Part shown: in pieces, positions 8,766 to 29,422 of the stretch
Position numbering within the stretch: position 1 is the first letter of the stretch
Layout: every line of letters begins with the position of its first letter
DNA from: Pedobacter cryoconitis
GTDB lineage: Bacteria; Bacteroidota; Bacteroidia; Sphingobacteriales; Sphingobacteriaceae
NCBI RefSeq assembly: GCF_014200595.1
Contig: NZ_JACHCG010000001.1
Location: forward strand, 1,240,001-1,304,000
Direction: 5' to 3'
Length of the DNA: 64,000 bases
The notes under the pieces: model-generated
Databases searched by the model: none
The model's input: only the letters and a program-made list of their open reading frames with translations
What the model was told of the DNA's origin: nothing
Made by a program: the position numbers and the translations under genes

Positions 8766-9494
8766 ATGTTTACCTTTTTTAAGAAAAAAAATCAAGTTGA
8801 AGATGTAGAATGGCTGGGTGTTGACATACATTCCCATTTATTGCCGGGGATTGATGACGGATCTCCTGATGTTGTGCAATCTTTGAGTTTGATTAAGCAG
8901 TTAAGTGATCTGGGGTTTAGTAAGTTCTTGTGTACGCCTCATATTTTTGAGGAATTGTATCCAAATGATGCTAATACCATTTCGTCTGCTTTGAAAGAAG
9001 TTAAAGATGGCTTAGAAAGCTCTGGTTTAGAGGTAGATATTGCTGCTGCTGCGGAATATATGATAGATGAAAATTTTCAGGTTAAAGATGGGTTGCTTTG
9101 TTTGCCGGGTAAGTATATTTTGATAGAAATGTCTTATCTCTCTGAAACTCCCGGAATTGATCAGGTGATCTTTGATCTGAAGATTCTTGGGTATCATGTT
9201 ATTCTTGCGCATCCGGAACGCTACGCATTCAATCATCAGTATCTGGCCAGATTTAACAGATATAAGGAAATGGGAGTGATGTTTCAGTTAAATTTATTAG
9301 CTGTTTGTGGATATTATGGGAATGAAGTAAAACGGGTATCCGACTATCTGCTGGAGAACAAGCTTTATGATTTTGCTGCTACAGATTTGCATCATAGCAG
9401 ACATTTGCATGTGCTCTCCGCTGCCATTACCAGTGGTGCTTTATACAAAAAGCTAGGTAGCTATGATTTTAAAAACAAAGAGATTTTCTCTTAA
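8766..9494 (+). CDS. CpsB/YwqE-type PHP-domain tyrosine-protein phosphatase
   Basis: The protein is 242 residues. The PHP metal-binding motifs are clear: DIHSHLLPGIDDG (residues ~20-32), CTPHI near 59, HPERYAF in the middle, and ATDLHHSRHL near the C-terminus. The family dephosphorylates the tyrosine-rich tail of Wzc/CpsD bacterial tyrosine kinases and so controls capsule or exopolysaccharide chain length. The kinase encoded two genes downstream (10444-12807) is the obvious partner. The protein has no signal peptide and should be cytoplasmic. Confidence 0.9.
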   Translation: MFTFFKKKNQVEDVEWLGVDIHSHLLPGIDDGSPDVVQSLSLIKQLSDLGFSKFLCTPHIFEELYPNDANTISSALKEVKDGLESSGLEVDIAAAAEYMIDENFQVKDGLLCLPGKYILIEMSYLSETPGIDQVIFDLKILGYHVILAHPERYAFNHQYLARFNRYKEMGVMFQLNLLAVCGYYGNEVKRVSDYLLENKLYDFAATDLHHSRHLHVLSAAITSGALYKKLGSYDFKNKEIFS

Positions 9495-9608: not shown

Positions 9609-10418
9609 ATGAGAAGAAGTTTTAGAAATGGTAAAATTAGAAACGGTGCAATACTGTTTCTGACTTTACTTTTTGCATCATGTGCAAGTACTAAAAATGT
9701 ACCTTATTTTCAGGACCTTACGTCCACAGAAAAATCTGTATTAGCCAATACAGCAGTCTTCACAGAGCCAGCAATTCAGCCTGATGATATCCTTTCTATT
9801 TCCATATTTACGATTGATCCGGCTACTTCTATGGTTGTAAATCAGGTAGGTACGCAGGCGCTGAGTACTGTTCCCGGGCCGTCTGGCGGGATTGTCGCTA
9901 CGCCTCCGTCTTCCGGGTTCCTGGTTGATAAAAATGGGGAAATTGATTTATCTATCGTCGGCAAAGTAAAGATCGGAGGGTTGACTACTTTCCAGGCCAG
10001 GGACTTGATTAAAGAAAAAGCCGCGGTCGTTTACAAAGATCCAAACGTACAGGTGCGTTATGCTAATTTTAAAGTCACTGTGCTGGGTGAGGTTGGAAGA
10101 CCATCTTCGTATGTATTACCAAATGAGCGGGTTAGTGTGCTGGATGCCTTGGGTCTGGCAGGAGATATGACGATATTCGGCAGGCGTGAAAACGTTTTGC
10201 TGATCCGGGAGAATAACGGTAAAAAGGAATTCGCAAGGCTGAACTTAAACTCTTCCGAGCTCTTTAACAGCCCTTTTTATTATCTCAAACAAAACGATGT
10301 CATTTACGTCGAGCCTAACAAAGGAAAAGCTGCTTCTTTAAATCAGGCAAGAACCCAGACTTATGCCATTATTGGAACTGCGCTCTCAGTTTTAATTGTC
10401 TTGTTTTCAAGACTTTAG
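9609..10418 (+). CDS. Wza-type polysaccharide export outer-membrane lipoprotein
   Basis: The protein is 269 residues with lipobox FASC (Cys25). After the start CASTKNVPYFQDL it carries a Poly_export (Wza/PES) domain (QPDDILSISIFT; residues ~55-145) and an SLBB domain (KVTVLGEVGRPSSYVLPNERVSVLDALGLAGD; ~150-200). A C-terminal hydrophobic helix (YAIIGTALSVLIVLF) is common in Bacteroidota members and in Wza, where it forms the outer-membrane pore. It acts with the Wzc-type protein encoded 25 bases downstream. Confidence 0.92.
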   Translation: MRRSFRNGKIRNGAILFLTLLFASCASTKNVPYFQDLTSTEKSVLANTAVFTEPAIQPDDILSISIFTIDPATSMVVNQVGTQALSTVPGPSGGIVATPPSSGFLVDKNGEIDLSIVGKVKIGGLTTFQARDLIKEKAAVVYKDPNVQVRYANFKVTVLGEVGRPSSYVLPNERVSVLDALGLAGDMTIFGRRENVLLIRENNGKKEFARLNLNSSELFNSPFYYLKQNDVIYVEPNKGKAASLNQARTQTYAIIGTALSVLIVLFSRL

Positions 10419-10443: not shown

Positions 10444-12807
10444 ATGAATAAGATAGTTGAAAATAGGATATCACAAAAAGATGATGCTTTAGATATTAAG
10501 CAAATTGTATCACGCTTATTATACAATTGGTATTGGATTTTATTGTCATTATTAATTTGTGTTACTTTTGCTGTGCTGTATGCCAGGTATAAAACACCCA
10601 GTTATAAAATATCCGCAAGAGTGCTGGTTAATGACGAGAAAAAAGGTAGTGGCCTGATGGCCGGCAGCGATATTCTGGGCGACCTTGGTGGGCTGCTGGG
10701 TGCAAAAAGTACCGTAGACAATGAAGCTGAAATTTTAAAGACCCGGTACTTAATGGAGCGTGTTGTCCAGGATATGGAGCTCAATATTACCTATTATAGA
10801 AAAGGAAGAGTAAAGAACACAGAGCTCTACAAATCACCAATTAAGGTGAGGATAATCTCGGCAGAAGATACGATTAAAGAAACGAATGTTGGCGTTGAGC
10901 TACTGAAAAACAATCAGCTGGCGATCAGTTCCAAAAAGCTGGATACGCTGGTGAGCTTTGGTAAACCCTTTAAGGTTCCACGCGTAGGTACGATTCTGAT
11001 TACCAAAAACCCGGAAGTTCCGGATTTATACACCAAATACAATGTGAACATCAATTCTGTTGATACCAAAGTGGCAGACATGATGGAAGACCTTACTGTG
11101 GAGGTGAAAAATAAACTCATTACCATTGTCGATGTCTCTTTGAACCACCCTATACCGAAAAAAGGAGAGGATATTCTGAATAAGCTGATTGAAAGCTACG
11201 TTCAGGAAAATGTGAAAGACAAGAATGAAATTGCTGATAGTACAGTTAAATTTATTCAGAACCGTTTGAGCTTTATTGGTAAAGAACTAGGTGACCTGGA
11301 AGGCAATATTCAGGGCTTTAAACAAAAGAACAACCTGGCAGACATGACCGAGCAGTCTAAGCTCTTAGTGCAGACTACAGGTCAGTATGTAAGTGATCTG
11401 AGTAAAATGGAGACCCAGATCAGTATTCTTAAAAGCTTGCAGGAATACTTGAAAGACGGAACAAAGAACAAACGTGTTTTACCAAGTTCTTTAGTGCCGG
11501 CAGATTTAGTATTTAGTGGTGCGGTAGAAAAATTCAATGCCCTGACACTCGAAAGAGCAAAAAGATTAATCGGTATCACTGAAGCCAATCCGGCAATTAT
11601 ATTATTAGATAAGGAGATTGCAAACGCAAGAGCAGATATCGAAGCTAACCTGGTGACCACACTGGATGCTTTTACCATTACCAGGGATAAATTAAGCAGT
11701 CAAATGAAAAAGGCTGAAACCCAGGTTCGCGGTGTACCCGAAATCGAACGTAATTACCTGAACCTGGCCCGTCAGCAGCAAATCAAGCAAGAACTTTACC
11801 TCTTTTTAATGCAGAAAAGTGAAGAGACTGCGATTTCTAAAACATCAAATATCTCGAATTCCAGGACTATTGATCCGCCTAAATCGGAAGTGAAGCCATT
11901 CAGTCCTAAAAAAGCGATGATTTATATCGTTGGGCTGTTCCTTGGCTTGTTTATTCCGATTGCAATCATTTATCTGAAAGATATCTTAAATGATAAGATC
12001 CAGACTAAAGAAGATATCAGCAGAGTAACCGCTGTTCCTGTGATCGGAGAAATCAGTCACAACGAAGAAGGAACTAACCTGGTTGTGGCCAATAGTTCCA
12101 GGTCTGCGGTCTCTGAACAATTCAGGGCGCTGAGGACCAACCTTTATTTCTATATGAAAGCCGCAGACGCGAAGGTCATTCTGATTACTTCGAGTATGGC
12201 AGGAGAAGGGAAATCTTTTGTCGCGATTAACCTTGGGAATGTACTGGCGCTTTCCAATAAGAAAGTCCTTTTAATGGAGCTTGATTTACGTAAACCCGGA
12301 CTATCTGCCAAACTGGATATTCCAAATGATTCAGGATTTACTAATTATATTATTGATCCCGATTTAACAGCGAAGGATATCGTAAAACCATTAAGTATCC
12401 ATAAAAATTTATCGATCATCAGTTCGGGGCCTGTGCCGCCAAACCCGGCAGAGATGTTATTGGATGACCGTACCAGAGAATTGATTGAAGAACTCAAATT
12501 ACAGTTTGATTATATCATTATAGATGCCCCTCCAATCGGGATCGTTGCCGATGCGCAGCTGATGTCTGCCCATGCAGACGCTTGTGTATACCTGGTCAGA
12601 CAAAACTTTACTGCTAAACAGCAATTGAACATTGTGGAAGATCTGAGCAGGAACGAAATGATGAAAAATATTGGAATCGTTGTCAATGATATTGATGGTC
12701 ATGGTTACGGTTATGGCTACGGATATGGCTATGGTTACGGCTATGGCTCTTACGATGCCCCAGACGATAAAAATAAAAAGTGGTTTAAAAAGTTGTTCAA
12801 ATCTTAA
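10444..12807 (+). CDS. Wzc-type polysaccharide co-polymerase with bacterial tyrosine-kinase domain
   Basis: The protein is 787 residues. A Wzz domain with a first membrane helix near residue 30-48, a periplasmic coiled-coil region (~250-460) and a second helix (~495-515, IVGLFLGLFIPIAII) lead to a cytoplasmic BY-kinase. Walker A is SSMAGEGKS (K590), Walker A' is MELDLRKPG and Walker B is IIIDAPP (D694). The C-terminus has seven Tyr-Gly repeats plus one further Tyr, then a Lys-rich end (KKWFKKLFKS). This is the autophosphorylated tyrosine cluster. It controls polymer length and export with the Wza-type protein, and the PHP phosphatase is its likely antagonist. Confidence 0.93.
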   Translation: MNKIVENRISQKDDALDIKQIVSRLLYNWYWILLSLLICVTFAVLYARYKTPSYKISARVLVNDEKKGSGLMAGSDILGDLGGLLGAKSTVDNEAEILKTRYLMERVVQDMELNITYYRKGRVKNTELYKSPIKVRIISAEDTIKETNVGVELLKNNQLAISSKKLDTLVSFGKPFKVPRVGTILITKNPEVPDLYTKYNVNINSVDTKVADMMEDLTVEVKNKLITIVDVSLNHPIPKKGEDILNKLIESYVQENVKDKNEIADSTVKFIQNRLSFIGKELGDLEGNIQGFKQKNNLADMTEQSKLLVQTTGQYVSDLSKMETQISILKSLQEYLKDGTKNKRVLPSSLVPADLVFSGAVEKFNALTLERAKRLIGITEANPAIILLDKEIANARADIEANLVTTLDAFTITRDKLSSQMKKAETQVRGVPEIERNYLNLARQQQIKQELYLFLMQKSEETAISKTSNISNSRTIDPPKSEVKPFSPKKAMIYIVGLFLGLFIPIAIIYLKDILNDKIQTKEDISRVTAVPVIGEISHNEEGTNLVVANSSRSAVSEQFRALRTNLYFYMKAADAKVILITSSMAGEGKSFVAINLGNVLALSNKKVLLMELDLRKPGLSAKLDIPNDSGFTNYIIDPDLTAKDIVKPLSIHKNLSIISSGPVPPNPAEMLLDDRTRELIEELKLQFDYIIIDAPPIGIVADAQLMSAHADACVYLVRQNFTAKQQLNIVEDLSRNEMMKNIGIVVNDIDGHGYGYGYGYGYGYGYGSYDAPDDKNKKWFKKLFKS

Positions 12808-12817
12808 TTAATTAGTT

Positions 12818-14359
12818 ATGTTTAAAATACTTGATTGTACCTTGAGGGATGGTGGTTATTACACCAACTGGGACTTCGATAAAAGTTTAGTCCATACTTA
12901 TCTGTCATCTCTAAACAACCTGCCAGTTGATTACATAGAGGTTGGTTACAGAAGCATTCCTATCAAAGAATATTATGGTAAATATTTTTATTCTCCCGTA
13001 TATGAATTGCAGGAGCTGAAAAGTCTGACCACTAAAAAACTCGTGATCATTTTTAATGAAAAAGATATCAGAGTTGAACACGTAGCCGACCTGTTACAGC
13101 CTATTATCGGTATCGTTGATATGGTGCGTATTGCACTTGATCCACAGCAACTGGGACGTGCATTGAAACTGGCAGCCGAAATCAAAAGATATGGTTTCGA
13201 AGTGGGTTTCAACGTAATGTACATGTCTAAATGGAAACAATACGGAAACTTCGTGGAAGAACTGAGCGGACTTGATGGTCTGGCGGATTACTTCTATATG
13301 GTAGACAGTTACGGAGGTGTATTTCCTGATGATGTGAAACAAACCATGGATCTGATCCGGTCAAAAACTGATTGTAAAATTGGTTTCCACGGTCACAATA
13401 ACCTGGAGATGGCTTTAATCAATTCATTGACAGCCGTTGATTACGGTGCTGATATTGTGGATTCGACTATTTTAGGAATGGGACGTGGCGCAGGGAATTT
13501 AAAAACTGAATTGCTATTGTCAGTTTTGAATACCAAATATAACATGGATATCGATTTTAATGCGATTGGAAATGTTGTTGACGGCTTTGATAAACTATTG
13601 AAAAAATACGAATGGGGAACTAACGTACCTTATATGATTTCAGGATCAAATTCATTGCCTCAAAAAGATGTAATGGATTGGTATACAACCCGTGTATATT
13701 CTCTGAACAGTATGGTTCGTGCACTTCAGAACCAGAAAAACAATATCAAAGACAATGAGCAGCTGCCAGTTTTCAAGCCTGCAAAATCTTATGATAAAGT
13801 GCTTATTCTGGGGGGCGGGCCAAATTCTGTAGAACATTCCAAAGCAATTATTGAGTTTATCAATCAGACTGAAAATATAGCTGTGGTACATTCAAGTTCA
13901 AAAAATGCCCTGTACTATAAAGATGTCCAGGCAGATCAGTTTTACTGCCTGGTTGGTAATGAAGGCCATCGTTTGGAAAAAGTGTTCAGTGATCTTGGAG
14001 ATTTTAAAGGCGTTTGCGTTTTCCCTCCGTTCCCGCGTAAAATGGGTACTTATATTCCTGCACAGATCCATGATCAATGCTTCGAATTTGAACAGATTTC
14101 CTTTACAGATAAGTTCAAAGAATCGCATAGTATCCTTGCTTTGCAAACCGCTTTGGAGTTAAAAGCAGAAGAGATTTATATCGCTGGTTTTGATGGTTAT
14201 CAGGAAGCTTCGATTTCTCAGCTGGAAAGAAGCCTGGTGGACGAAAATGAATTTTTATTCCAAATCTTCCAGGAAACTTATAGCAAGGATATTATCTCTT
14301 TAACACCTACAAGGTATAAAACCTTACAGTCCGGTTCAGTTTATAGTTTGGTATGCTAA
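12818..14359 (+). CDS. DRE-TIM/HMGL-type aldolase fused to a C-terminal Rossmann-like (DUF115-like) domain
   Basis: The protein is 513 residues. Residues 1-~310 form a TIM barrel of the 4-hydroxy-2-oxovalerate aldolase/HMG-CoA lyase group: LDCTLRDGGY (D11 as metal ligand), HGHNNLEMAL (H191, H193), and DSTILGMGRGAGN. Known relatives use a divalent metal and form or cleave a pyruvate-derived C-C bond. Residues ~325-513 begin VLILGGGPNS (GGGP 332-335) and include EIYIAGFDGY, which recalls DUF115/CstII-like folds. The gene overlaps the KdsB-like gene by one base (TAATG), then come a HAD phosphatase and a sialyltransferase-like enzyme. I infer synthesis of a 2-keto-3-deoxy sugar acid from pyruvate and an aldehyde sugar; the substrate is unknown. 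Confidence 0.75.
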   Translation: MFKILDCTLRDGGYYTNWDFDKSLVHTYLSSLNNLPVDYIEVGYRSIPIKEYYGKYFYSPVYELQELKSLTTKKLVIIFNEKDIRVEHVADLLQPIIGIVDMVRIALDPQQLGRALKLAAEIKRYGFEVGFNVMYMSKWKQYGNFVEELSGLDGLADYFYMVDSYGGVFPDDVKQTMDLIRSKTDCKIGFHGHNNLEMALINSLTAVDYGADIVDSTILGMGRGAGNLKTELLLSVLNTKYNMDIDFNAIGNVVDGFDKLLKKYEWGTNVPYMISGSNSLPQKDVMDWYTTRVYSLNSMVRALQNQKNNIKDNEQLPVFKPAKSYDKVLILGGGPNSVEHSKAIIEFINQTENIAVVHSSSKNALYYKDVQADQFYCLVGNEGHRLEKVFSDLGDFKGVCVFPPFPRKMGTYIPAQIHDQCFEFEQISFTDKFKESHSILALQTALELKAEEIYIAGFDGYQEASISQLERSLVDENEFLFQIFQETYSKDIISLTPTRYKTLQSGSVYSLVC

Positions 14360-15096
14360 TGAATTTTATTGTAGTTATTCCCGCACGATATCAATCGACC
14401 AGGTTTCCAGGAAAACCACTGCTCGATATAAACGGTAAAAGCATGTTATTGCGGACCTATGAACAATGTATTCAGGCCGTAGATAAAAGTTTAGTATACG
14501 TGGCTACTGAAGATCAGCGCATTGTGGAACATTGCGAGTCCTTCGGTATTCAGGTCTTATTAACCTCAGATAACTGCTTAACCGGTACAGACCGGATAGC
14601 TGAAGTTGCAGCTCTGGTGAAAGCAGACTATTACATCAATGTTCAGGGCGATGAGCCCTTGTTTAACCCTGATGATATTACTAAAATGATCTCCCGCCTG
14701 GATACTTATCCGGGGGAGATCCTCAATGGATATTGTCCGATTACAGATGAAAGACAGTACAGAAGCAAGTCTGTGCCTAAAGTTGTTTTCAGACCGGATG
14801 GCAGGCTTTTATATATGTCCAGAAGTCCTGTTCCAGGTAATAAAAGCCTGGATTTTGTGAAAGCATGGAGACAGGTTTGTGTTTACGCATTTCCTTTCAT
14901 GGCATTAAAAGCTTTTGCTGAAACTAAAAATAAGACTGTTCTGGAAGCAGAAGAGGATATCGAGATTTTGAGGTTTCTGGAATTGAATTACGAGGTGAGA
15001 ATGATTGAGTTGTCCAGTGAATCTATTGCGATAGACAATCCGGAAGACCTGAAAGAAGTATTGGCTAAACTAAAAGAAGATGCTATCAAAGTATAA
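14359..15096 (+). CDS. kdsB: KdsB-like CMP-2-keto-3-deoxy-sugar cytidylyltransferase
   Basis: The protein is 245 residues from the ATG at 14359. That codon overlaps the upstream stop as TAATG and puts the conserved IPARYQSTRFPGKPL at residues 6-20; an ATG at 14353 would add two residues. NVQGDEPL and the internal VPKVVFRPDGRLLYMSRSPVP match KdsB, which makes CMP-Kdo from CTP and Kdo. Housekeeping Kdo activation is usually encoded with LPS genes, so a copy inside this operon may activate a different ulosonate. The gene symbol denotes family, not proven substrate. Confidence 0.85.
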   Translation: MNFIVVIPARYQSTRFPGKPLLDINGKSMLLRTYEQCIQAVDKSLVYVATEDQRIVEHCESFGIQVLLTSDNCLTGTDRIAEVAALVKADYYINVQGDEPLFNPDDITKMISRLDTYPGEILNGYCPITDERQYRSKSVPKVVFRPDGRLLYMSRSPVPGNKSLDFVKAWRQVCVYAFPFMALKAFAETKNKTVLEAEEDIEILRFLELNYEVRMIELSSESIAIDNPEDLKEVLAKLKEDAIKV

Positions 15097-15712
15097 AGTA
15101 ATATTGTGGGATTTCGATGGGGTCATTATGGACTCCATGCCCATAAGATCAAAAGGGTTTGAGCTGGTGTTAGCGCAATACCCTAAAGCACAGGTAGATG
15201 AGCTGATGACTTATCATGAACTGAACGGTGGCCTTTCCAGGTATGTGAAATTCAGGTATTTCTTTGAGCAGATCAGGCAAGAAACAATTACTGAGACGCA
15301 GGTGCTGGAACTGGCAGCTCAGTTTTCTGAGATCATGCTTTCCCTTTTGCTGGATGAAAAGCTATTGATTCCCGACAGCGTTGAATTTATCAAAGCGAAC
15401 TGGCAGAATTTCCAGATGCATATTGTTTCCGGATCTGACGGTAAAGAGCTTAAAATGATCAATGATGAACTTGGGCTTTCCAAATACTTTAAAACCATCA
15501 ATGGTTCCCCGACACCTAAAAAACAATTGGTAGAAAACGTATTAACAGCCAATCAGTACGATAAAGATGAGGTCGTGCTGATCGGTGATTCTATCAATGA
15601 CTATGACGCAGCTATGGTCAACAACATTTCTTTTGCGGGTTATAATAACCCTGAACTGAAACTTCTTTCTGAAAATTATATCACGCAATTCAAGCTAATC
15701 GTTTCCCAATGA
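15080..15712 (+). CDS. HAD-superfamily phosphatase
   Basis: The protein is 210 residues. HAD motif I is WDFDGVIMDS (nucleophile Asp10), motif II is VSGSDG, the motif III Lys is in PTPKKQ, and motif IV is LIGDSINDYDAA. A helical cap lies between motifs I and II (C1-cap subtype I). Such enzymes often dephosphorylate sugar phosphates. Overlap with the KdsB-like gene by 17 bases and with the flippase gene by 4 bases shows translational coupling. The likely job is removal of a phosphate from the aldol product before CMP activation, as KdsC does in the Kdo pathway; this is inferred from context. Confidence 0.8.
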   Translation: MLSKYKVILWDFDGVIMDSMPIRSKGFELVLAQYPKAQVDELMTYHELNGGLSRYVKFRYFFEQIRQETITETQVLELAAQFSEIMLSLLLDEKLLIPDSVEFIKANWQNFQMHIVSGSDGKELKMINDELGLSKYFKTINGSPTPKKQLVENVLTANQYDKDEVVLIGDSINDYDAAMVNNISFAGYNNPELKLLSENYITQFKLIVSQ

Positions 15713-16944
15713 AATTCAGTATCCTTAAGACGGTTTTCTTTGAATCCCTGAACAGACTTTGCACTTTAATTATTGTGCTGCTGGTGTCCAGGAATTTTTC
15801 TGTCAGTACTTATGGGTACTTTTCTTTGTTTATAACCATCACTTCTATCGGGCAGACTGTCATTGACTTCGGCTCACAGAATTTTGGCGTAAAGGAGCTG
15901 ATCAAGCTGAAGGAAATTACGGACATCAAAAAAATGGTCACTACCGTGAGTACTTTCCGTTTTATAGGATTCATAGTCTGGGTATTATTCTCTATTGTCT
16001 ATTCCTTTTTCATTGAAGACTCCGTTACTTTCGCCACCCTTTTAATTATATGGGGTTTAATCTATCTCTACTACTGCGACTGGATTTTAAAAGGAGTTGG
16101 TAAAATATCCAGCCAGGCGCTGATCAACCTCACTACAAACGGAATTGCTTTACTGGCGCTTTATCTGCTGATCTGGAAGAAGCTTGATCTGACTAATAGT
16201 TATATCATCAGTGTCGCCAAGATCGGCCCGTTACTCGCCGCGGCTATAATCTCCGGATTCTTTTTGAAATGGTTCACTAAATCTAACCTCGTGCTGGTAG
16301 GGATCAAAAAAACATGGCCTAAAAGCCAGTTTAATGAAACTATGCTCTTTACCACTGGTAGTTTTTGTGCCAGGGCTTATAATTCTATAGGTCTGATCCT
16401 GGTTGGTTTCCTGCTTGATAAAACTACGCTGGGGATGATCTCTTACGCTTTCACCTTTTATAATATTTTCAGTATGGGCAGGGCGATACTGATTACCTCC
16501 GTTTACCCATACTTCTGTAAACTCGAAAGGAAAAAGGCACTTAAACTATCCATGTTTCTGAATCTGGGTGCCACACTGTGCTTCGTTTTATTTCTGATCG
16601 TTTACCTGAATTATTCAGATGAAATTATCCATATCATCGTGCCGAAAACGACCGCTATTTCAGAGGTCATCCGGTTCAATTTTAATGTAGGAGTAGCTCT
16701 GATCGGTGTAGTGTGTATGTCCTTTTTTACCATTACTTTTTTACAAGCCTTTGAAGGGGGCGGGATCTTTAACAGGCTGACCATTTACGGATTGGTGATT
16801 GTGCTGGTGCTAAATCTGCTGGGGTATTTTCTCGGCTATCTGAAATACAGTTCGATTGCTTCCTTGCTGGCAGCAGAATTTTTAATTGCGCTTTATTCTT
16901 ACTTCTACATTTTTAAAAAGACAAATAATGAAGGCATTAGTTAA
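15709..16944 (+). CDS. Wzx-type oligosaccharide flippase (MOP superfamily)
   Basis: The protein is 411 residues with about 12 hydrophobic segments along its whole length. The N-terminus (LLVSRNFSVSTYGYFSLFITITSIGQTVIDFGSQNFGVKEL) is typical of polysaccharide-export flippases that move undecaprenyl-linked repeat units across the inner membrane. It stands directly before a Wzy-like gene, as expected for a Wzx/Wzy-dependent pathway, and overlaps it by 17 bases. Confidence 0.85.
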   Translation: MKFSILKTVFFESLNRLCTLIIVLLVSRNFSVSTYGYFSLFITITSIGQTVIDFGSQNFGVKELIKLKEITDIKKMVTTVSTFRFIGFIVWVLFSIVYSFFIEDSVTFATLLIIWGLIYLYYCDWILKGVGKISSQALINLTTNGIALLALYLLIWKKLDLTNSYIISVAKIGPLLAAAIISGFFLKWFTKSNLVLVGIKKTWPKSQFNETMLFTTGSFCARAYNSIGLILVGFLLDKTTLGMISYAFTFYNIFSMGRAILITSVYPYFCKLERKKALKLSMFLNLGATLCFVLFLIVYLNYSDEIIHIIVPKTTAISEVIRFNFNVGVALIGVVCMSFFTITFLQAFEGGGIFNRLTIYGLVIVLVLNLLGYFLGYLKYSSIASLLAAEFLIALYSYFYIFKKTNNEGIS

Positions 16945-18175
16945 TAGATTATTTTTAAGCCTTGTCCTGTTACTTCCATGGCATTCACTTCTGGTGAACG
17001 GGTACCTGAGAAAATATTTCTCATTGATTGTGCTGTGGAAGGAATTGGCTGTGGTAGCTCTGTTTATTCTGGCTATTACGCACAAAGGGCCTAAAATAAG
17101 TGGTATAAAGCTCATTATATTGCTCAGTACTATTTTCCTGTTAACTGCTCACCTTTTCTTTAACAGTGTCGGTTTGCTGGCCGCCTACAGTTACCGGATC
17201 TATCTCCTGCCTATTTTAATGACCATTTCCCTCTATAAGTTGTCAGATCTGATCGATTGGGAGAAAATCTGTAAATGGTTTATCATCGGTGCCTTTGTGA
17301 TGGCCATATTTACCACGATCCAGCAATTATTTCTGGGGGAAAGTATTTACCTGAACGCTGGTTATCCAGTCAACACCTTTAGCGATGAAAAGCTAAATTT
17401 TACCTTTTACATCGGTTATGGATTACTGCAAAGAGGGGCAGGAGGGTTTATTGCGCCAATTCCTTATAGTGTATACCTGATTCTGGCACTGGTTTTACTG
17501 TTCAAATACAAAGAACTGTTTAGTGCTAAATTTGCCAAGACCCTGAATATGGTTTTAACCATTAGTTTGGTGCTGACCTTTACCCGGTCTACCATTGCCA
17601 CTTATCTGTTCTTCTTTGCCATTCCTTACCTGAATATTTTTACCCGCAAAACTGTGAAATATCTGGTTGTGCTTGTGTTTGTGGTGATCATCCAGTTTTT
17701 TATTGTTCCCACTGCTATTCAGGAAATGGAACTGAGTACTATTGATACTTTCTGGAGCAACAGTACCTCGCTGGAAGATACCAGTTCTGCCGGTCACTTT
17801 GAAAGTCTGGACAGAGGTTATAAAATTGCATGGGAGAACATTGGAAACGGTATTGGCTTAGGGAAAGTTGGGGCACATACTGCCGCATTTTTTGATAACG
17901 CACTGGTTATCGAATCCGGGTACTTATCAGTAATTATTGAACTTGGCTTAATGACTGCCGTATTTGTATACCTGTCATTTCCACTGGTGCATTATAAAAA
18001 AGGCTCACTGTCTACCGTCATTATCCTGGTTTACCTTGCGGTGTCCTTCCTTTTGCCTCTAATCTATTACGTAGAATTATCCCTGTTAATTCTCATCACT
18101 ATTGAAGCGCTAAATAACGAAAAGAAAATATATGTTGATCATAGTAGGAAGTCCATGGCAAGCTCTTTTGGCTAA
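16928..18175 (+). CDS. Wzy/O-antigen-ligase-like polymerase
   Basis: The protein is 415 residues from the ATG at 16928, chosen because it precedes the first membrane helix (ALVNRLFLSLVLLLPWHSLL); the longer frame from 16886 adds an implausible leader inside the flippase gene. About ten membrane helices flank a large periplasmic loop (residues ~240-310) that carries SAGHFESLDRGYKIAWENIGNGIGLGKVG, the usual O-antigen ligase/polymerase loop motif with H/R residues. It should polymerise repeat units in the periplasm. Confidence 0.8.
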   Translation: MKALVNRLFLSLVLLLPWHSLLVNGYLRKYFSLIVLWKELAVVALFILAITHKGPKISGIKLIILLSTIFLLTAHLFFNSVGLLAAYSYRIYLLPILMTISLYKLSDLIDWEKICKWFIIGAFVMAIFTTIQQLFLGESIYLNAGYPVNTFSDEKLNFTFYIGYGLLQRGAGGFIAPIPYSVYLILALVLLFKYKELFSAKFAKTLNMVLTISLVLTFTRSTIATYLFFFAIPYLNIFTRKTVKYLVVLVFVVIIQFFIVPTAIQEMELSTIDTFWSNSTSLEDTSSAGHFESLDRGYKIAWENIGNGIGLGKVGAHTAAFFDNALVIESGYLSVIIELGLMTAVFVYLSFPLVHYKKGSLSTVIILVYLAVSFLLPLIYYVELSLLILITIEALNNEKKIYVDHSRKSMASSFG

Positions 18176-19187
18176 GAGCTATATTCTCAAGGAGAATATA
18201 ACTGACCCGCAATACATCATTGAGAAATCATCTCCGAAATCATTCGCAGAGATTATAAAAATACTCGATGCCGAACAGGATTCGATCCGTATGATTATTG
18301 AATGGTCGCAACTCTCTGTGCTTTCCAGGGCGAAAGCTAACATCGCATCCTCCTATATTGATGCGGTTAAGCAGGCCCTGCAACACGATTACTTTAAAAC
18401 TGTAGAAACGATCCTGGTCTTTTCTGAGCAAACCGTTCTCTTTAAAATCATTTATGATCTTTTTGGGGATGATAAAACTTATATCAAATCAGAAGACGGG
18501 ATCCTGGACTATCTTCCGGAACTTAAACACCACAGTTTGTTAAAACAGATTGCCGGATATCTGTTCATCCAGTCGAAAGTTAAATATTACGTCTATAAAA
18601 ACTATTATCCTGTGTTCAGCCAGGTGATCATGTTCAGTAAGGTTGAAGAAGTGAGCCCGGAGCGTTATGTTCCACTGGCGAGCCTTAAAAAAGAATTCCT
18701 GACCGTTTTAAAAACGGCGTATCAGATTACCGAAGGAAGTGATACTTTCAAAGGTAAAGATGTGCTGCTGCTTTGCCAGTCTCTCTCCGAAGATAAAGTT
18801 GTTCCTCTGGAAGAAGAGCTGAAATTGTATGAGAAATTTATTCAACGTTGTAACGACTTAAAAATGACGGTGATTATCAAACCTCATCCACGGTCGTGCC
18901 CGGAAAAAATTGAAGCTCTAAGTAAGCTCACCTCCAACCGGGTGGAGTTTTTTGAAGATTATGGCATTCCGGCCGAATCCATGTTGCTGAACGGGAAATT
19001 TAAAGAAGTTGTCGGCGTTTATTCTAATACCATTATCTATGCCCATGAATTTTTTGGCGTTAAAGGGATTTCTTTACTCACCCCGCAAATGATTGAGCGG
19101 TTGGCCCGTAAAGAAAAAAAGAAATTTACTTATATCTACGCGCAGTTAAGAAAGTATTTTAGTAATGAATATACTGTTTTCCAATAG
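18132..19187 (+). CDS. Sialyltransferase-clan glycosyltransferase (polysialyltransferase/GT52-like)
   Basis: The protein is 351 residues. It begins MLIIVGSPWQALLA, the start typical of this clan, and shows the two motifs shared by bacterial GT38/GT52/GT80 sialyltransferases: E-D-G at residues 121-123 (SEDGILDYLP) and H-P at 253-254 (IIKPHPR). An S-N-T sits at 299-301 where clan members carry a Ser/Thr motif. Known relatives use CMP-sialic acid or CMP-Kdo donors. With the CMP-sugar synthetase three genes upstream, it is the natural acceptor-side enzyme for the same sugar acid. It overlaps the polymerase gene by 44 bases. Overall similarity is low, so the assignment rests on motifs and context. 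Confidence 0.65.
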   Translation: MLIIVGSPWQALLAKSYILKENITDPQYIIEKSSPKSFAEIIKILDAEQDSIRMIIEWSQLSVLSRAKANIASSYIDAVKQALQHDYFKTVETILVFSEQTVLFKIIYDLFGDDKTYIKSEDGILDYLPELKHHSLLKQIAGYLFIQSKVKYYVYKNYYPVFSQVIMFSKVEEVSPERYVPLASLKKEFLTVLKTAYQITEGSDTFKGKDVLLLCQSLSEDKVVPLEEELKLYEKFIQRCNDLKMTVIIKPHPRSCPEKIEALSKLTSNRVEFFEDYGIPAESMLLNGKFKEVVGVYSNTIIYAHEFFGVKGISLLTPQMIERLARKEKKKFTYIYAQLRKYFSNEYTVFQ

Positions 19188-19190
19188 CTT

Positions 19191-20297
19191 ATGAATTTGA
19201 CATCGTTTCTTCCTCTTAAGATGAACATTGCGATCCTGGCGATTGCGATCATCCCGTTTACCGGCGGCTTTCAAAGCAGCCCAAAAGAAAAACCAGCTGC
19301 TGATATTAAATTAGGAGCTTATTATTTTGACGGATGGACTGGAAAATATGCACAGCATATCAGCCCTAAACTAATGAACTCCTTTGCGAACAGGAAACCA
19401 AAATGGGGCTGGATCACAAGCTCTCAGAGCGTTGTTGACCAGCAGATTACAGCGGCCTCCAATGCGGGGCTTTCTTTCTTTAGTTTCTGCTGGTATTATA
19501 GCGGGAAAGACAAATTTAAAACAGAGCCCCTGAATAATGCATTGAAGTATTTTCAAAAGTCTGCCAATACCAGTAAAATGGAATACTGCCTGATGGTGGC
19601 TAACCATAAAGGATTTGAAATAGGTACAGCTGACTGGAGTACGGTCCAGGCAGAATGGGTAAAGCAATTTAAAACGCCAAACTATTTAAAAGTAAATGGT
19701 AAACCGCTGCTTATCATTTTCTCAGTCGAGAATCTCATTAAAGATCTGGGGTCAGCAGATGCTGTTAAAAGTGCTTTTCAGGACTTAAAAACTGCTGCAA
19801 CAGCTGGCGGGTTAAGCGGTGTAACCATGGCCGCCTGTATTTCTGGTGATGCACGGAGCATCAAACAAGCAGAAGATTGTGGCTTTGATATCCTGACTGG
19901 CTATAACCAGCATAGCGCAGGTTTTACGGCGAAAACTACACAGATTCCTATTGACAGCATGCGGACTGCCGAGAAAAGGTTATGGAACAGGGTTGCTAAA
20001 ATCAGTGACCTGCCCTATATCCCTGTATCCACCCTGAACTGGGACCCAAGACCTTGGGCAGCAGCAAATAATGCCTATGATTCCGCTCCTTATTTTGTCG
20101 GTTATTCTGAAAAATCAGTTTATAACTCCGTTTCCGGAATGATGACCTGGATGAATAAAAATACAGCACATACAACCAAAGAAAACATTGCACTGCTTTA
20201 CGCATGGAATGAAAACGGAGAAGGTGCCTATCTGACTCCCTCTGCAAAAGGGCCAAACTTCCTCAGGGGACTACAAAAAGCTTTAAATAAACAATAA
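19191..20297 (+). CDS. Secreted GH99-like/WbsX-family protein
   Basis: The protein is 368 residues. A signal peptide lies near residues 11-27 (MNIAILAIAIIPFTGGF), so translation may instead begin at the ATG at 19221. The mature part starts LGAYYFDGWTGKYAQH and contains ITAASNAGLSFFSFCWYYSG, MVANH, GKPLLIIFS and a C-terminal YAWNENGEGAYLTP. These are features of WbsX/GH99-like TIM barrels found in polysaccharide clusters. GH99 enzymes are endo-mannosidases; WbsX proteins are often called glycosyltransferases without proof. Periplasmic location suggests trimming or cutting of the polymer. Confidence 0.75.
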   Translation: MNLTSFLPLKMNIAILAIAIIPFTGGFQSSPKEKPAADIKLGAYYFDGWTGKYAQHISPKLMNSFANRKPKWGWITSSQSVVDQQITAASNAGLSFFSFCWYYSGKDKFKTEPLNNALKYFQKSANTSKMEYCLMVANHKGFEIGTADWSTVQAEWVKQFKTPNYLKVNGKPLLIIFSVENLIKDLGSADAVKSAFQDLKTAATAGGLSGVTMAACISGDARSIKQAEDCGFDILTGYNQHSAGFTAKTTQIPIDSMRTAEKRLWNRVAKISDLPYIPVSTLNWDPRPWAAANNAYDSAPYFVGYSEKSVYNSVSGMMTWMNKNTAHTTKENIALLYAWNENGEGAYLTPSAKGPNFLRGLQKALNKQ

Positions 20298-21418
20298 TGA
20301 GTTTGATACAAAAAAAGATAAGAATTCTGCTCGACGCACATATTTTTGATCATTCTTTTCAGGGTACCGCTACTTACATGTATGGATTATATTCTGCGCT
20401 GGTAGAATTCGAAGGACTCGAAATCTCTTTATGCGCAAATGACCTTCAGCATTTAAAAGCACTGTTTCCTGATCCAAGATTTCAATTTGTACAATTGAAT
20501 GCAGGCTCAAGCATCAAAAGACTGCTGACCGAATATCCTAAACTAATCAAAGAAGGGAAATATGACTATGCGCACTTCCAATATATAGTCCCCTTTGTTA
20601 AAAACTGTAAATTCATCAATACCGTTCACGACCTGCTGTTTTTAGAATTTAAACAATATTTTCCCTGGTCTTACCGCATGAGCAGAAAGGTGCTTTTTTG
20701 GGCTTCTGCTAAAAGATCAGATATTGTATTGACGGTTTCAGAATATTCACGAATTGATGTTTCTAAAAAGTTCCTGATTGCTAAAGAACAGATTCATGTA
20801 ACCCCGAATGCCGTTACGGTAAGCCCGGGGAAGGTCGGATCCGAAATTAATATCAAAGCGAAATATGGCATCGAGAAATATATCCTGTTCGTCAGCCGCT
20901 TTGAGCCCAGAAAAAATCACAGTGGACTGTTAAACGCTTTCCTGAATTTAAAGCTCTACGAACAAGGTTATAACCTTGTTTTTATCGGGAGTAAAAAAGA
21001 GAAAATTGAGCAAGATGCTTTTGATGAATTGCAAATGCTGATCAATGACGATAACCGGAAATATATCCACTTTCTGGAAGGCATCAGCTGGCCGGATCTG
21101 AATGCATTCTATCAGCAGGCAGAAGTCTTTGCTTTTCCATCCCTAGCAGAAGGTTTTGGGATTCCGCCTATAGAAGCGGCCATAAATGGATGTAAGGTGA
21201 TTTGTTCCAATCAGACGGCAATGTCAGAATTTGGCTTTTTCAAATACTTATTTGACCCCGGAGATCAGCCTGGGTTTGAATCTATGTTACGTGCAGTGCT
21301 GGATGATCAGGAATACCCTTTTGAACAAATCAAACAAGAGATCACCAGTAAATATAACTGGCAGGTGATCGCAGATAAATTTTATAATATAATTAGCAAA
21401 GATCATATATGCGCATAG
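20297..21418 (+). CDS. GT4-family glycosyltransferase
   Basis: The protein is 373 residues with a GT-B fold. The C-terminal half has FVSRFEPRKNHSGLLNAF, FLEGISWPDLNAFYQQAEVFAFPSLAEGFGIPPIEAA, the usual GT4 donor-site E-x7-E stretch. The start ATG is preceded by TAA of the upstream gene with one base shared, so translation is coupled. Donor and acceptor sugars are not readable. It probably adds one residue of the repeat unit on the cytoplasmic face. Confidence 0.88.
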   Translation: MSLIQKKIRILLDAHIFDHSFQGTATYMYGLYSALVEFEGLEISLCANDLQHLKALFPDPRFQFVQLNAGSSIKRLLTEYPKLIKEGKYDYAHFQYIVPFVKNCKFINTVHDLLFLEFKQYFPWSYRMSRKVLFWASAKRSDIVLTVSEYSRIDVSKKFLIAKEQIHVTPNAVTVSPGKVGSEINIKAKYGIEKYILFVSRFEPRKNHSGLLNAFLNLKLYEQGYNLVFIGSKKEKIEQDAFDELQMLINDDNRKYIHFLEGISWPDLNAFYQQAEVFAFPSLAEGFGIPPIEAAINGCKVICSNQTAMSEFGFFKYLFDPGDQPGFESMLRAVLDDQEYPFEQIKQEITSKYNWQVIADKFYNIISKDHICA

Positions 21419-22515
21419 CGATAATCGGGACAAGAGGTATACCAAACTATTATGGTGGTTTTGAACAATGTGCAGAGTACCTTGCGCTTGGGTTAGTGAA
21501 AAGAGGATTTGAAGTTATCGTTTACAACTCTCATAACCATCCCTGCCAGGAAAAGGAGTGGAATGGTGTTAAATTGGTGCATTGTTACGATCCTGAAGAT
21601 AAAATTGGTACTGCCGGCCAGTTTATTTATGACCTGAACTGTATTCTTGATGTGAGAAAACAGCATTGTGATATCATTCTGCAACTCGGGTATACCAGTA
21701 GTTCGGTCTGGGGCTGGATGCTGCCAAAAAAAGTAGTCGTGACCACCAATATGGATGGACTGGAATGGAAGCGGACAAAGTATTCAGAAAAAGTAAAGAA
21801 ATTCTTAAGGTACGCAGAAAGCCTTGGTGTTAAATATAGTGATCATTTGATCTCAGATTCTATCGGGATTCAGGACTATCTGAAAGATAAATATAAAAAA
21901 GACTCCACCTTCATCGCTTACGGGGCTACTTTATTTGAAAATCCTGATCCGAATGTGCTTCAGGAATACAAACTCGCTCCGTATGCCTACAATATGCTGA
22001 TTGCCAGATTAGAGCCTGAAAATAGTATTGAAGTTATCCTGGATGGTGTAGCGATGGCGAATCTTGATATCCCGTTTCTGGTTGTCGGCAAACACGAAAC
22101 CGCTTACGGAAATTATCTGAAAGCAAAATTTGCTGCCTATCCTCAAATCAGGTTTATTGGTGGTATTTATAACATTGGAATCCTGAATAGTCTGAGACAT
22201 TTCTCAAAGATCTATTTTCATGGGCATACCGTTGGCGGTACTAATCCATCTCTGCTCGAGGCTATGGCATCAAGCAGTTTGATCTGTGCAAATGATAATC
22301 CTTTCAATAAGTACATTTTAGAAAGTGATGCGATCTATTTCCAGAATGCAGCCGATGTTCAAAAGCACTTATTGAAAGTAGTTTATGATCAGGATCTCTA
22401 TCAATCGATGATTGCAAATAACAGGGATAAGATTACCAGGATCTATGATTGGGAATTGATTGTTGATCAATATGCAAATCACTTTGCTACCGTTAAAGGA
22501 CAGATCAGCCGGTAA
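21409..22515 (+). CDS. DUF1972-type GT4 glycosyltransferase (rhamnosyltransferase-like)
   Basis: The protein is 368 residues. The N-terminal IAIIGTRGIPNYYGGFEQCAEYLA is the DUF1972 signature of WchF/CpsT-like beta-1,4-rhamnosyltransferases. The C-terminal half carries LIARLEPENSIEVILDG and HGHTVGGTNPSLLEAMA. The family often uses dTDP-rhamnose, and dTDP-rhamnose genes lie at 26556-29351, so rhamnose is a reasonable guess for its donor. It overlaps the previous gene by ten bases and is the last gene of the co-directional block. Confidence 0.85.
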   Translation: MRIAIIGTRGIPNYYGGFEQCAEYLALGLVKRGFEVIVYNSHNHPCQEKEWNGVKLVHCYDPEDKIGTAGQFIYDLNCILDVRKQHCDIILQLGYTSSSVWGWMLPKKVVVTTNMDGLEWKRTKYSEKVKKFLRYAESLGVKYSDHLISDSIGIQDYLKDKYKKDSTFIAYGATLFENPDPNVLQEYKLAPYAYNMLIARLEPENSIEVILDGVAMANLDIPFLVVGKHETAYGNYLKAKFAAYPQIRFIGGIYNIGILNSLRHFSKIYFHGHTVGGTNPSLLEAMASSSLICANDNPFNKYILESDAIYFQNAADVQKHLLKVVYDQDLYQSMIANNRDKITRIYDWELIVDQYANHFATVKGQISR

Positions 22516-25616: not shown

Positions 25617-26525
25617 ATGACTAAATTAAAACCCTCACTCGTTATTTTGGCTGCCGGAATGGCGAGCCGTTATGGTGGCAATAAACAAATTGAGTCTTTT
25701 GGGCCTTCCGGAGAAACCATTATGGAGTATTCAATTTTTGATGCCATTAAAGCAGGGTTTGGTAAGGTGATCTTTATCATCCGTGAAGAATTTGCTGCTT
25801 CTTTTAAAGCTGCTATTGAACCTAAGCTTGCGGGTAAAATTGGGCTGGACTATGTTTACCAGTCTCTGGATAAATTTAGTGGCGGCCAGGAGATTTCTGC
25901 TGAACGTACAAAACCATTTGGGACACAACATGCGCTGTTATGTACAAAGGAGGTTTTAGATGGGCCTTTCGCAGTGATCAATGCGGATGACTTTTATGGT
26001 GATGATGCATTTAAGCAAGCTTACGATTTTCTGACTACAGAAGCCGCAGCAGGAAAATATGCCTGTATCGGATATGAACTTAAAAATAGCTTAAGTGATC
26101 ATGGCTCAGTGACCCGTGGTCAGATTAATGTGAATGCAGCCGGTCATATTACGGGGATCACAGAGCGTAAAGAAGTGGTTAAAAAGGATGGTAAAGCAAT
26201 CGCAAAGGATGGGGATACGCTGATTGAATTACCGCTGGATACCAAAGTAAGTATGAACTTCTTTTGCTTTACGCCGGAGTTTGTGAATTGGAGTGAAATT
26301 GGTTATCTTAAGTTTCTTCAGGAAAATGTAAATGACCTGAAAGCTGAGTTTTTAATCCCGGAAGTTGCAGATCAGCTGATCAATGCAGGTGAGGGGGTAG
26401 TGAAAATGATCCCAACTCAATCTAAATGGTTTGGTGTGACTTTTAAAGAAGATGCACAGATCGTTAAAGAAAGACTATTGGAGCTGACAGCAGAGGGATT
26501 GTATCCTGCTGATCTGTGGAAATAA
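25617..26525 (+). CDS. Sugar-phosphate nucleotidyltransferase (NTP_transferase family)
   Basis: The protein is 302 residues. The N-terminal ILAAGMASRYGGNKQIESFGPSGETIMEYSIFDAI is a pyrophosphorylase nucleotide loop of the type found in uncharacterised Bacteroidota NDP-sugar pyrophosphorylases. FAVINADDFYG is the Mg-binding centre. It differs from RmlA (28491-29351) and ManC in this window, so it probably makes another NDP-sugar. Substrate cannot be predicted. It heads the unit that continues with rmlB, rmlD and rmlA. Confidence 0.8.
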   Translation: MTKLKPSLVILAAGMASRYGGNKQIESFGPSGETIMEYSIFDAIKAGFGKVIFIIREEFAASFKAAIEPKLAGKIGLDYVYQSLDKFSGGQEISAERTKPFGTQHALLCTKEVLDGPFAVINADDFYGDDAFKQAYDFLTTEAAAGKYACIGYELKNSLSDHGSVTRGQINVNAAGHITGITERKEVVKKDGKAIAKDGDTLIELPLDTKVSMNFFCFTPEFVNWSEIGYLKFLQENVNDLKAEFLIPEVADQLINAGEGVVKMIPTQSKWFGVTFKEDAQIVKERLLELTAEGLYPADLWK

Positions 26526-26555
26526 AAATCAGGATAATCAACCATTAAATTTATA

Positions 26556-27614
26556 ATGATGACTAAGAAAATTTTAATTACCGGTGGTGCCGGCTTTATC
26601 GGTTCCCATGTAGTGCGCAGGTTCGTGAAGAGCTATCCCGATTATCAGATCGTAAACCTTGATAAATTAACTTATGCAGGGAATCTTTTAAATCTGACTG
26701 ATATAGAAGCAGCGCCAAATTATGAATTTATAAAAGGCGATATTGTGGATGCCGCTTTTATAGCTGAGCTGTTCCGTACGGCGCAATTTGATGCCGTTGT
26801 CCATTTGGCTGCCGAATCACACGTGGACCGTTCTATTTCCAATCCGATGGAATTTGTGATGACCAATGTGATTGGGACAGTTAATCTGCTGAATGCTGCA
26901 AAAGAACATTGGAAAGGCGACTACGCGAATAAGCGTTTTTATCATGTTTCCACAGATGAAGTTTATGGAGCACTAGGTGAAACCGGTATGTTTACCGAGA
27001 CTACCGCTTATGATCCGCATAGCCCTTACTCTGCTTCTAAAGCAAGTTCGGATCACTTTGTTCGTGCTTACCACGATACCTATGGCCTGGATGTGGTGAT
27101 TTCCAACTGCTCGAATAACTATGGCTCTCATCATTTTCCGGAAAAACTAATTCCGCTGGCGATCAATAATATTAAAAATAATAAAGCAGTACCTGTATAC
27201 GGTAAAGGTGAAAATGTGCGCGACTGGCTTTGGGTAGAAGATCATGCCCGTGCGATTGATGTAATTTTCCACCAGGCAAATGCAGGAGAAACCTATAATA
27301 TAGGTGGTCACAATGAATGGAAAAACATTGACCTGATTAAATTGCTTTGCAGGATTATGGATGAAAAACTTGGGCGTTTATCCGGTACCTCTGAACAATT
27401 GATTACTTATGTGACCGATCGTGCAGGCCACGATTTGAGATATGCAATTGATTCTTCTAAACTTCAGGAAAAATTAAACTGGGTACCCAGTCTTCAATTT
27501 GAAGAAGGCCTGGCTAAAACTGTAGATTGGTATCTTGAAAATGAACAATGGCTGGATGATGTGACTTCGTCAAATTATCAGTCTTATTATGAAACGCAAT
27601 ACGCAGAAAGATAA
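26556..27614 (+). CDS. rmlB: dTDP-glucose 4,6-dehydratase
   Basis: The protein is 352 residues, an extended SDR enzyme. NAD-binding ITGGAGFIGSHVVRRF is at residues 6-21, the active-site STDEVYG holds the Thr-Asp-Glu triad, and YSASKASSDH contains the Tyr/Lys pair. SNCSNNYG and FPEKLIPLAI are RmlB family markers. It converts dTDP-glucose to dTDP-4-keto-6-deoxyglucose. Start ATGATGACT offers two Met; the first is used here. The next gene starts immediately after the TAA. Confidence 0.95.
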   Translation: MMTKKILITGGAGFIGSHVVRRFVKSYPDYQIVNLDKLTYAGNLLNLTDIEAAPNYEFIKGDIVDAAFIAELFRTAQFDAVVHLAAESHVDRSISNPMEFVMTNVIGTVNLLNAAKEHWKGDYANKRFYHVSTDEVYGALGETGMFTETTAYDPHSPYSASKASSDHFVRAYHDTYGLDVVISNCSNNYGSHHFPEKLIPLAINNIKNNKAVPVYGKGENVRDWLWVEDHARAIDVIFHQANAGETYNIGGHNEWKNIDLIKLLCRIMDEKLGRLSGTSEQLITYVTDRAGHDLRYAIDSSKLQEKLNWVPSLQFEEGLAKTVDWYLENEQWLDDVTSSNYQSYYETQYAER

Positions 27615-28487: not shown

Positions 28488-28490
28488 AAT

Positions 28491-29351: not shown

Positions 29352-29383
29352 ATTTATTTTTACAGCTTTTTGCTGTGCTGAAA

Positions 29384-29422
29384 AGATCCCCCGGATACCC
29401 ATCCGGGGGATCTTTTTTTTTT
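29384..29422 (+). terminator. Strong rho-independent terminator after rmlA
   Basis: A perfect 13-bp stem (AGATCCCCCGGAT at 29384-29396, ATCCGGGGGATCT at 29401-29413) with a 4-base loop is followed by ten T residues. Confidence 0.95.

Follow-up and report, generated by a model that had tools for sequence, protein, structure and literature searches.

How could a bacterium build a cytidine monophosphate (CMP)-activated ulosonic acid with a pyruvate-type aldolase in the place where a phosphoenolpyruvate (PEP)-dependent synthase is expected? This question is raised by three adjoining genes of Pedobacter cryoconitis, located at 12818-15712 of a 64,000-nt stretch of DNA (C1:1240001-1304000 of the 6.35 Mb genome), which we call the window and whose numbering is used unless a contig or locus is named. 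By common teaching, it is PEP-dependent synthases that give rise to CMP-ulosonates. The three genes encode a DRE-TIM aldolase, a KdsB-type synthetase and a HAD phosphatase; on balance, they appear to form a cassette for a CMP-activated 3-deoxy-2-ulosonic acid, other than 3-deoxy-D-manno-octulosonic acid (Kdo), that is entered by the pyruvate aldolase. The two core elements of this reading, an aldolase in the place of the PEP synthase and an unusual CMP-activated ulosonate, are predicted from sequence and well supported by comparative evidence, albeit not proven.

A first-pass annotation of this DNA had listed the aldolase, the KdsB-like protein, the HAD phosphatase and a glycosyltransferase; open reading frames (ORFs) and their translations confirm all four where it had placed them, with the motifs LRDGGY, HGHNNL, EDG and KPHP. 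The four had been assigned to one operon, and the genes indeed overlap (aldolase/kdsB by 7 bases, kdsB/HAD by 17 and HAD/Wzx-like by 4), an arrangement as in one operon.

Conservation of the cassette across genomes

Genome contigs were scanned with two aldolase peptide patterns derived from an alignment of relatives that share 58% identity or more with the window protein, yielding 68 confirmed loci that span 37-98% identity. Absences counted in these loci are upper bounds, because some loci are cut by contig ends; one aldolase ORF (L050) was uncalled, being present in the six-frame translation and absent from the tree and from all counts over 67 rows. A CMP-ulosonate synthetase lies beside the aldolase in 68 of the 68 loci, which had been found by the aldolase alone. 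Among the 67 called loci, it is of the KdsB type in 26 and of the NeuA type, at position +1, in 34, while in seven an HpcH/HpaI-family protein comes first and a NeuA-type synthetase follows; a KdsB-type gene follows the aldolase of L050. On the aldolase tree of 67 rows these three synthetase states need 18 changes (our trees are quick ones, with long branches at L073 and L074). KdsB-type and NeuA-type enzymes can apparently replace each other beside the same aldolase and seem to have been swapped repeatedly. Since both families act on anomeric 2-keto-3-deoxy acids, these swaps make an ulosonate the likeliest common product.

Sixty-one of the 68 loci also hold the HAD family, scoring 100 bits or higher; the L021 copy is broken into two frames. 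Among 395 genomes sampled across the phylum, nine contained the aldolase, in ten loci (our own included), and all ten carry the CMP synthetase and the HAD gene with it, an arrangement far beyond chance. Neither the aldolase nor the HAD family was found in 38 control stretches taken from the 3' side of Wzc genes of further genomes in the class (two of the original 40 were too short and were dropped). Thirty canonical KdsB genes likewise had neither the aldolase nor the cassette HAD within 1.5 kb. Outside the phylum, all three full-length plasmid homologues, each from Leisingera and 25.2-25.6% identical, keep the order aldolase-KdsB-HAD. One cassette locus each bears the label Akkermansiaceae (L059) and Rhodohalobacter (L051). 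The cassette also occurs in a metagenome-assembled genome labelled Streptomyces griseus (L067); on the tree, this aldolase groups within Bacteroidota, which makes the label probably wrong.

Other relatives of the aldolase were set apart. As regards phage origin, a phage collection gave two partial, weak matches, and the match examined was a common 4-hydroxy-2-oxovalerate aldolase encoded next to genes of sugar-acid catabolism. The Salmonella contig filed among phages (L197:2960-7084) holds genes for 4-hydroxy-2-oxovalerate aldolase, acetaldehyde dehydrogenase, altronate-dehydratase-like proteins and a ketodeoxygluconate transporter, representing catabolic sugar-acid use of this aldolase fold. 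Short RDGGY-type aldolases without the second domain occur on Paraburkholderia and Mesorhizobium plasmids (L190:6971-10809, L192:6977-10224), where a large HAD fusion protein and an aminotransferase gene or domain are close by. With no CMP synthetase annotated or matched there and a different HAD type, they do not belong to this cassette and are attributed to a different small-molecule pathway. A short RDGGY-type aldolase of Priestia megaterium was likewise put aside, no CMP synthetase being annotated nearby.

The two-domain aldolase

The aldolase consists of a catalytic barrel (approximately residues 1-306) and a second domain (approximately residues 307-513), the latter absent from the first-pass annotation. 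It belongs to PF00682 (81.4 bits; cut-off 29) and misses the equivalog cut-off of TIGR03217 for 4-hydroxy-2-oxovalerate aldolase (91.3 bits; cut-off 286). Residues R10, D11, H191, H193 and N227, which we take to be the metal and catalytic motifs RDG, HxH and the N of GAGN/GPGN, are invariant in 19 sequences from two deep clades. The fold of the model is nearest to pyruvate aldolases and not to homocitrate or isopropylmalate synthases, the fold list for the whole model being filled by barrel matches. The family is large, with 6788 of 8000 scored candidates passing E 1e-5. The matches listed comprise 120 relatives, each of nearly full length and with 58% identity or more; the nearest named relatives are from Pedobacter (96-98% identity). 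The structure 3dxi, the N-terminal domain of the putative aldolase BVU_2661 of Bacteroides vulgatus, is 57% identical to the window protein, and its title assigns it no function.

The C-terminal domain is kept across the two deep aldolase clades (hhalign 99.2% over 171 columns). Forty-five of 57 members match the MptE-like family PF01973 at E values of up to 1; the domain of the window aldolase scores 17.2 bits, below the cut-off of 34.6. Aligned with GT42-like neighbours, the domain reaches 95% in hhalign over just 28-32 columns, and three negative controls stay at or below 0.9%. Its profile found no worthwhile match among solved structures (best E 0.35). We speculate that this distantly CMP-sialyltransferase-like domain may sense or bind the CMP sugar.

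The CMP synthetase, the phosphatase and the nature of the sugar

The window KdsB lies above the cut-off of the KdsB subfamily model NF009905 (285 bits; cut-off 255) and below that of the equivalog TIGR00466 (134.6 bits; cut-off 155.2). A second, canonical KdsB of the genome (C2:746752) reaches 231 bits with the latter model, which marks the window protein as an extra, divergent paralogue. The roles of the cytidine triphosphate (CTP) loop and of two Asp metal ligands in KdsB, and the binding of Kdo by its C-terminal domain, are taken from PMC3149649. As mapped here, the CTP-loop and metal residues R12, R17, K21, D100 and D228 occur in 29 of 29 cassette-KdsB rows.

The sugar domain was compared with a canonical set of 30 loci, of which 21 sequences passed a motif filter and nine were dropped; from the 29 rows called cassette KdsB, the one of L052 (at -3, canonical-like and not adjoining the aldolase) was excluded, leaving 28. 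Position 174 is His in all 21 canonical relatives and Gln (25) or Ala (3) in the cassette KdsBs. The canonical Gly at position 176 is replaced by Cys in 25 of 28, and the canonical Gln at position 205 by Ile in 24 of 28. The window KdsB accordingly shows Q174, C176 and I205 instead of H, G and Q and lacks the canonical HxGIY and LEQLR, which are present in the genome's other KdsB and in all five of the solved KdsB chains displayed, out of 13 found. The Leisingera KdsB carries the cassette letters. The lack in 28 of 28 cassette KdsBs of a His kept in 21 of 21 canonical relatives suggests that the sugar is probably not Kdo, and the changed residues weaken the naive reading of the second cassette gene as a Kdo enzyme. 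Our guess would be that the loss of polar residues from this domain fits a shorter sugar.

The cassette HAD, assigned to the HAD-IA phosphatases, agrees with HAD_2 (PF13419, 62.8 bits) and with the four catalytic motifs. D11, D13, S117, K147, D170 and D174, presumably the catalytic residues, and the cap motif NGGLSRY are kept in at least 90% of 59 HAD sequences. The presence of a phosphatase in the cassette suggests a phosphorylated intermediate. Across 58 loci, the distances between aldolases are correlated with those between HAD proteins (r 0.65), as would also be expected if whole loci were inherited together.

Glycosyltransferases near the cassette

The protein encoded at 18132-19187 is a member of the polysialyltransferase family PF07388 (211 bits; cut-off 23.3) and the likely user of the CMP sugar; for such transfers, the first-pass annotation had pointed to GT52/GT38/GT80-type enzymes. 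The first-pass annotation proposed a search for aldolase, KdsB-like protein, HAD and this transferase as one set: aldolase, CMP synthetase and HAD proved to be widespread, and PF07388 was found in 14 of the 68 loci and in 0 of the 38 controls. Taken more broadly, CMP-sialyltransferase-type families (PF07388, GT29 and MptE-like) occur in 39 of 68 cassette loci versus 0 of 38 controls; 36 of the 39 are supported at 100 bits or more, and three (L055, L056, L065) by weak MptE matches of 32-37 bits. The profile of the MptE-like proteins, which we assume to be GT42, finds alpha-2,3/2,8-sialyltransferases of the PDB at E 3.4e-11. The test loci themselves supplied the training set of the glycosyltransferase (GT) profiles, a point addressed just partly by held-out halves, in which half-trained profiles matched 17-20 of 34 held-out loci and none of the 38 controls. 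A GT2/GT4 gene is present in 27 of 38 controls versus 58 of 68 cassette loci; the controls are thus somewhat poorer in glycan genes.

Alternative explanations

The first-pass annotation noted no KdsA- or NeuB-like gene in the window, and this stands: PF00793 matches of the whole genome map outside the window, and a PF03102 search for NeuB gave no match genome-wide at E 0.001. Its suggestion that the aldolase replaces the PEP-dependent synthase is borne out in part, as no KdsA was found in the 68 cassette loci, yet KdsA (271 aa, C1:2285037) and the canonical KdsB are encoded elsewhere in the genome, so that a housekeeping supply of Kdo is compatible with the local absence. This KdsA is one of several observations that weigh against the proposed role of the cassette. 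In 15 of 68 loci, NeuB is encoded no more than 10 kb away. The HAD family is missing from seven of 68; three of these run out of contig (L048, L050, L071), and in four (L049, L052, L054, L060), one starred group from gut Bacteroidales, it seems to be truly lacking. These four keep the CMP synthetase and L049 has a different HAD (32 bits) instead, so the step is there either lost or done by another enzyme. No CMP-sialyltransferase-type gene was recognised in 29 of 68 loci and in Leisingera L189. Tyr14 of the aldolase aligns with the His of the RDGSH motif of 4-hydroxy-2-oxovalerate aldolase, which presumably acts as base, and the chemistry could therefore differ. In 7 of 67 loci and in three of nine further ones, the gene next after the aldolase is HpcH/HpaI (PF03328), a second pyruvate-type aldolase, and there either enzyme might make the C-C bond.

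The latter loci, with two pyruvate-type aldolases side by side, are the main puzzle. These loci (L033, L034, L036, L037, L043, L045, L062, L194, L195, L196) encode DRE-TIM and then HpcH/HpaI aldolase, a NeuA-type synthetase and HAD, and the HpcH/HpaI state of the first seven needs five changes on the aldolase tree. An extended-SDR-like gene (about 300 aa, by eye) was seen in or next to the cassette in L043, L045, L193, L194 and L195, four of which also have HpcH/HpaI; its product may modify the sugar or its precursor. Both the HpcH/HpaI neighbours and Tyr14 would suit an arrangement in which the DRE-TIM enzyme makes or breaks a precursor (an aldehyde, a hydroxy acid or an acyl-CoA Claisen product) and another enzyme, e.g., the HpcH/HpaI aldolase, builds the CMP-activated acid. 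We consider this unlikely: 60 of 67 loci have no HpcH/HpaI beside the aldolase but do have a CMP synthetase, and the fold, as noted above, resembles pyruvate aldolases more closely than homocitrate or isopropylmalate synthases.

KpsU is a second CMP-Kdo synthetase in E. coli capsules. By analogy, the cassette KdsB, which does exceed the NF009905 cut-off, could be fed by the housekeeping KdsA, whose gene the genome holds along with that of a canonical KdsB, with aldolase and HAD making an unrelated polymer decoration. The failure to find KdsA in the 68 loci, the change of the canonical H174, G176 and Q205, and the 34 of 67 loci in which KdsB is replaced by a NeuA-type enzyme next to this aldolase make this explanation quite improbable. 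The same locus counts (KdsA 0 of 68, NeuB 15 of 68) weaken the idea of a PEP-dependent synthase feeding the cassette from inside the locus. Activation of a non-sugar or phosphonate group by CMP, rather than of an ulosonate, appears hardly credible. Nucleotidyl activation is described as common in cell-surface phosphonate tailoring in PMC6697681, and a PEP-mutase-superfamily protein is encoded elsewhere in the genome. However, the PF13714 matches lie outside the window, the best approximately 289 kb past its end, which weakens this candidate. Moreover, KdsB and NeuA synthetases are established to act on anomeric 2-keto acids, and the CMP-sialyltransferase-type neighbours fit such a substrate.

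Proposed pathway and its implications

We return to a pyruvate aldolase feeding a CMP-ulosonate synthetase. The unusual CMP-ulosonate put forward in the first-pass annotation has gained in weight through the cross-phylum cassette, the 68 loci in which no KdsA was found, the KdsB/NeuA swaps, the altered Kdo domain and the CMP-sialyltransferase-type neighbours, short of proof. In the predicted pathway, the metal-dependent DRE-TIM aldolase would add pyruvate enolate to an aldose, probably phosphorylated, giving a 2-keto-3-deoxy-aldonate phosphate, from which the HAD phosphatase would take off the phosphate. The divergent KdsB, whose family is clear, would then couple the cyclic ulosonate, its presumed substrate, to CMP. 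The PF07388 transferase would add the ulosonate to the repeat unit, and the Wzx, Wzy, Wza and Wzc proteins would export the exopolysaccharide.

A broader proposal is offered tentatively, with less confidence than the pathway itself: the cassette may represent a third, unrecognised CMP-ulosonate route beside KdsA and NeuB, in which a metal-dependent pyruvate aldolase with a fused domain resembling CMP-sialyltransferases (which would be a sensor of the product or act as a transferase on its own) and interchangeable KdsB/NeuA enzymes supply a non-Kdo, possibly shorter 3-deoxy-ulosonate for surface glycans of Bacteroidota, Alphaproteobacteria and others. The enzyme families are known ones in a conserved, non-random combination, which appears undescribed among the matches listed from openly licensed literature; this is no claim of absence from print. 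A dedicated aldolase route would account for the orphan structure 3dxi and for what is done by the many proteins that currently bear the names '4-hydroxy 2-oxovalerate aldolase' or 'aldolase catalytic domain-containing protein'. It would also predict an undescribed class of surface sugars and offer a new pair of biocatalysts. The pathway is directly testable with three small enzymes.

Genomic context

The exopolysaccharide operon opens at 8766 with the CpsB/CapC phosphatase gene, continues with Wza- and Wzc-like genes and closes with a glycosyltransferase gene that ends at 22515 (Table 1).

Table 1 Features of the exopolysaccharide operon, in window positions
Feature	Position	Strand	Evidence
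CpsB/CapC phosphatase, operon start	8766..9494	+	PF19567 127 bits
Wza-like export protein	9609..10418	+	PF02563 53.8 bits
Wzc-like co-polymerase/tyrosine kinase	10444..12807	+	PF02706, PF13807, PF13614
Cassette gene 1, two-domain DRE-TIM (HMGL-like) pyruvate-type aldolase, 513 aa	12818..14359	+	PF00682 81.4 bits
Aldolase C-terminal domain, weakly MptE/GT42-like (CMP-sialyltransferase superfamily)	13739..14356	+	profile and hhalign
Cassette gene 2, divergent KdsB-type CMP-ulosonate synthetase, 247 aa	14353..15096	+	PF02348 (CTP_transf_3) 132 bits
Cassette gene 3, HAD-IA phosphatase, 210 aa	15080..15712	+	HAD_2 PF13419 62.8 bits
Wzx-like flippase	15709..16944	+	PF01943 26.6 bits, just below cut-off 28.2
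Wzy/O-antigen-ligase-like polymerase	16886..18175	+	PF04932 25.9 bits, below cut-off 31.7
PF07388 polysialyltransferase-family glycosyltransferase, 351 aa	18132..19187	+	PF07388 211 bits
WbsX/GH99-like protein	19191..20297	+	PF14307 59.3 bits
GT4 glycosyltransferase	20297..21418	+	PF00534 82 bits
Cps2T-like glycosyltransferase	21409..22515	+	PF09314 83.2 bits; NF046071 198.8 bits, below cut-off 500

A run of Gly-Tyr repeats near the C-terminus of the Wzc-like protein (12703-12750) is probably a tyrosine-phosphorylation tail. The GH99-like/WbsX protein is found 3' of the cassette in both phyla (19191-20297 and Leisingera L189:13025-14077), the window copy having a hydrophobic N-terminus. Following two minus-strand genes, a second sugar block (25617-31102) comprises genes for a nucleotidyltransferase, for an initiating transferase of the Bac_transf type and for rmlB-like and rmlD-like proteins; with the Cps2T-like transferase, the block would suit a repeat unit that contains rhamnose. 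The window also encodes glycoside hydrolases, with matches to families 9, 3 and 95, at 37-1251, 43258-44868 and 52776-55160.

Comparison with known systems

The cassette, as predicted from its genes, shares with the Kdo pathway (KdsA, KdsC, KdsB) a 2-keto-3-deoxy acid, a phosphatase step and CMP activation by a KdsB fold. It differs in having a pyruvate-type aldolase instead of the PEP-dependent KdsA, in the altered Kdo domain of its KdsB and in a HAD protein that resembles phosphoglycolate-phosphatase-type profiles and is, we assume, unlike KdsC. With the nonulosonate pathways (NeuB, NeuA, sialyltransferases) it has in common the NeuA-type synthetase at +1 in 34 of 67 cassettes and the GT42-like, GT29 and PF07388 transferases nearby, whereas NeuB is not part of the cassette and was absent from the fetched stretch of 52 of 67 loci.

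Among aldolases, DmpG/BphI 4-hydroxy-2-oxovalerate aldolase is the nearest characterised fold, with the same metal-ligand motifs RDG, HxH and GAGN. The cassette enzyme has Tyr14 for the motif His, another C-terminal domain and a TIGR03217 score below cut-off, and no partner aldehyde dehydrogenase was seen among the operon genes scanned. 3dxi (BVU_2661) belongs to the same family as the window aldolase and offers a solved structure, but the crystal is without the C-terminal domain. The use of N-acetylneuraminic acid (Neu5Ac) aldolase in synthetic cascades is a preparative use of a catabolic enzyme. Such in vitro cascades with CMP-sialate synthetase, as outlined in PMC7729866, follow the same logic of an aldolase plus a CMP synthetase, whereas the cassette is a conserved gene set with another aldolase fold.

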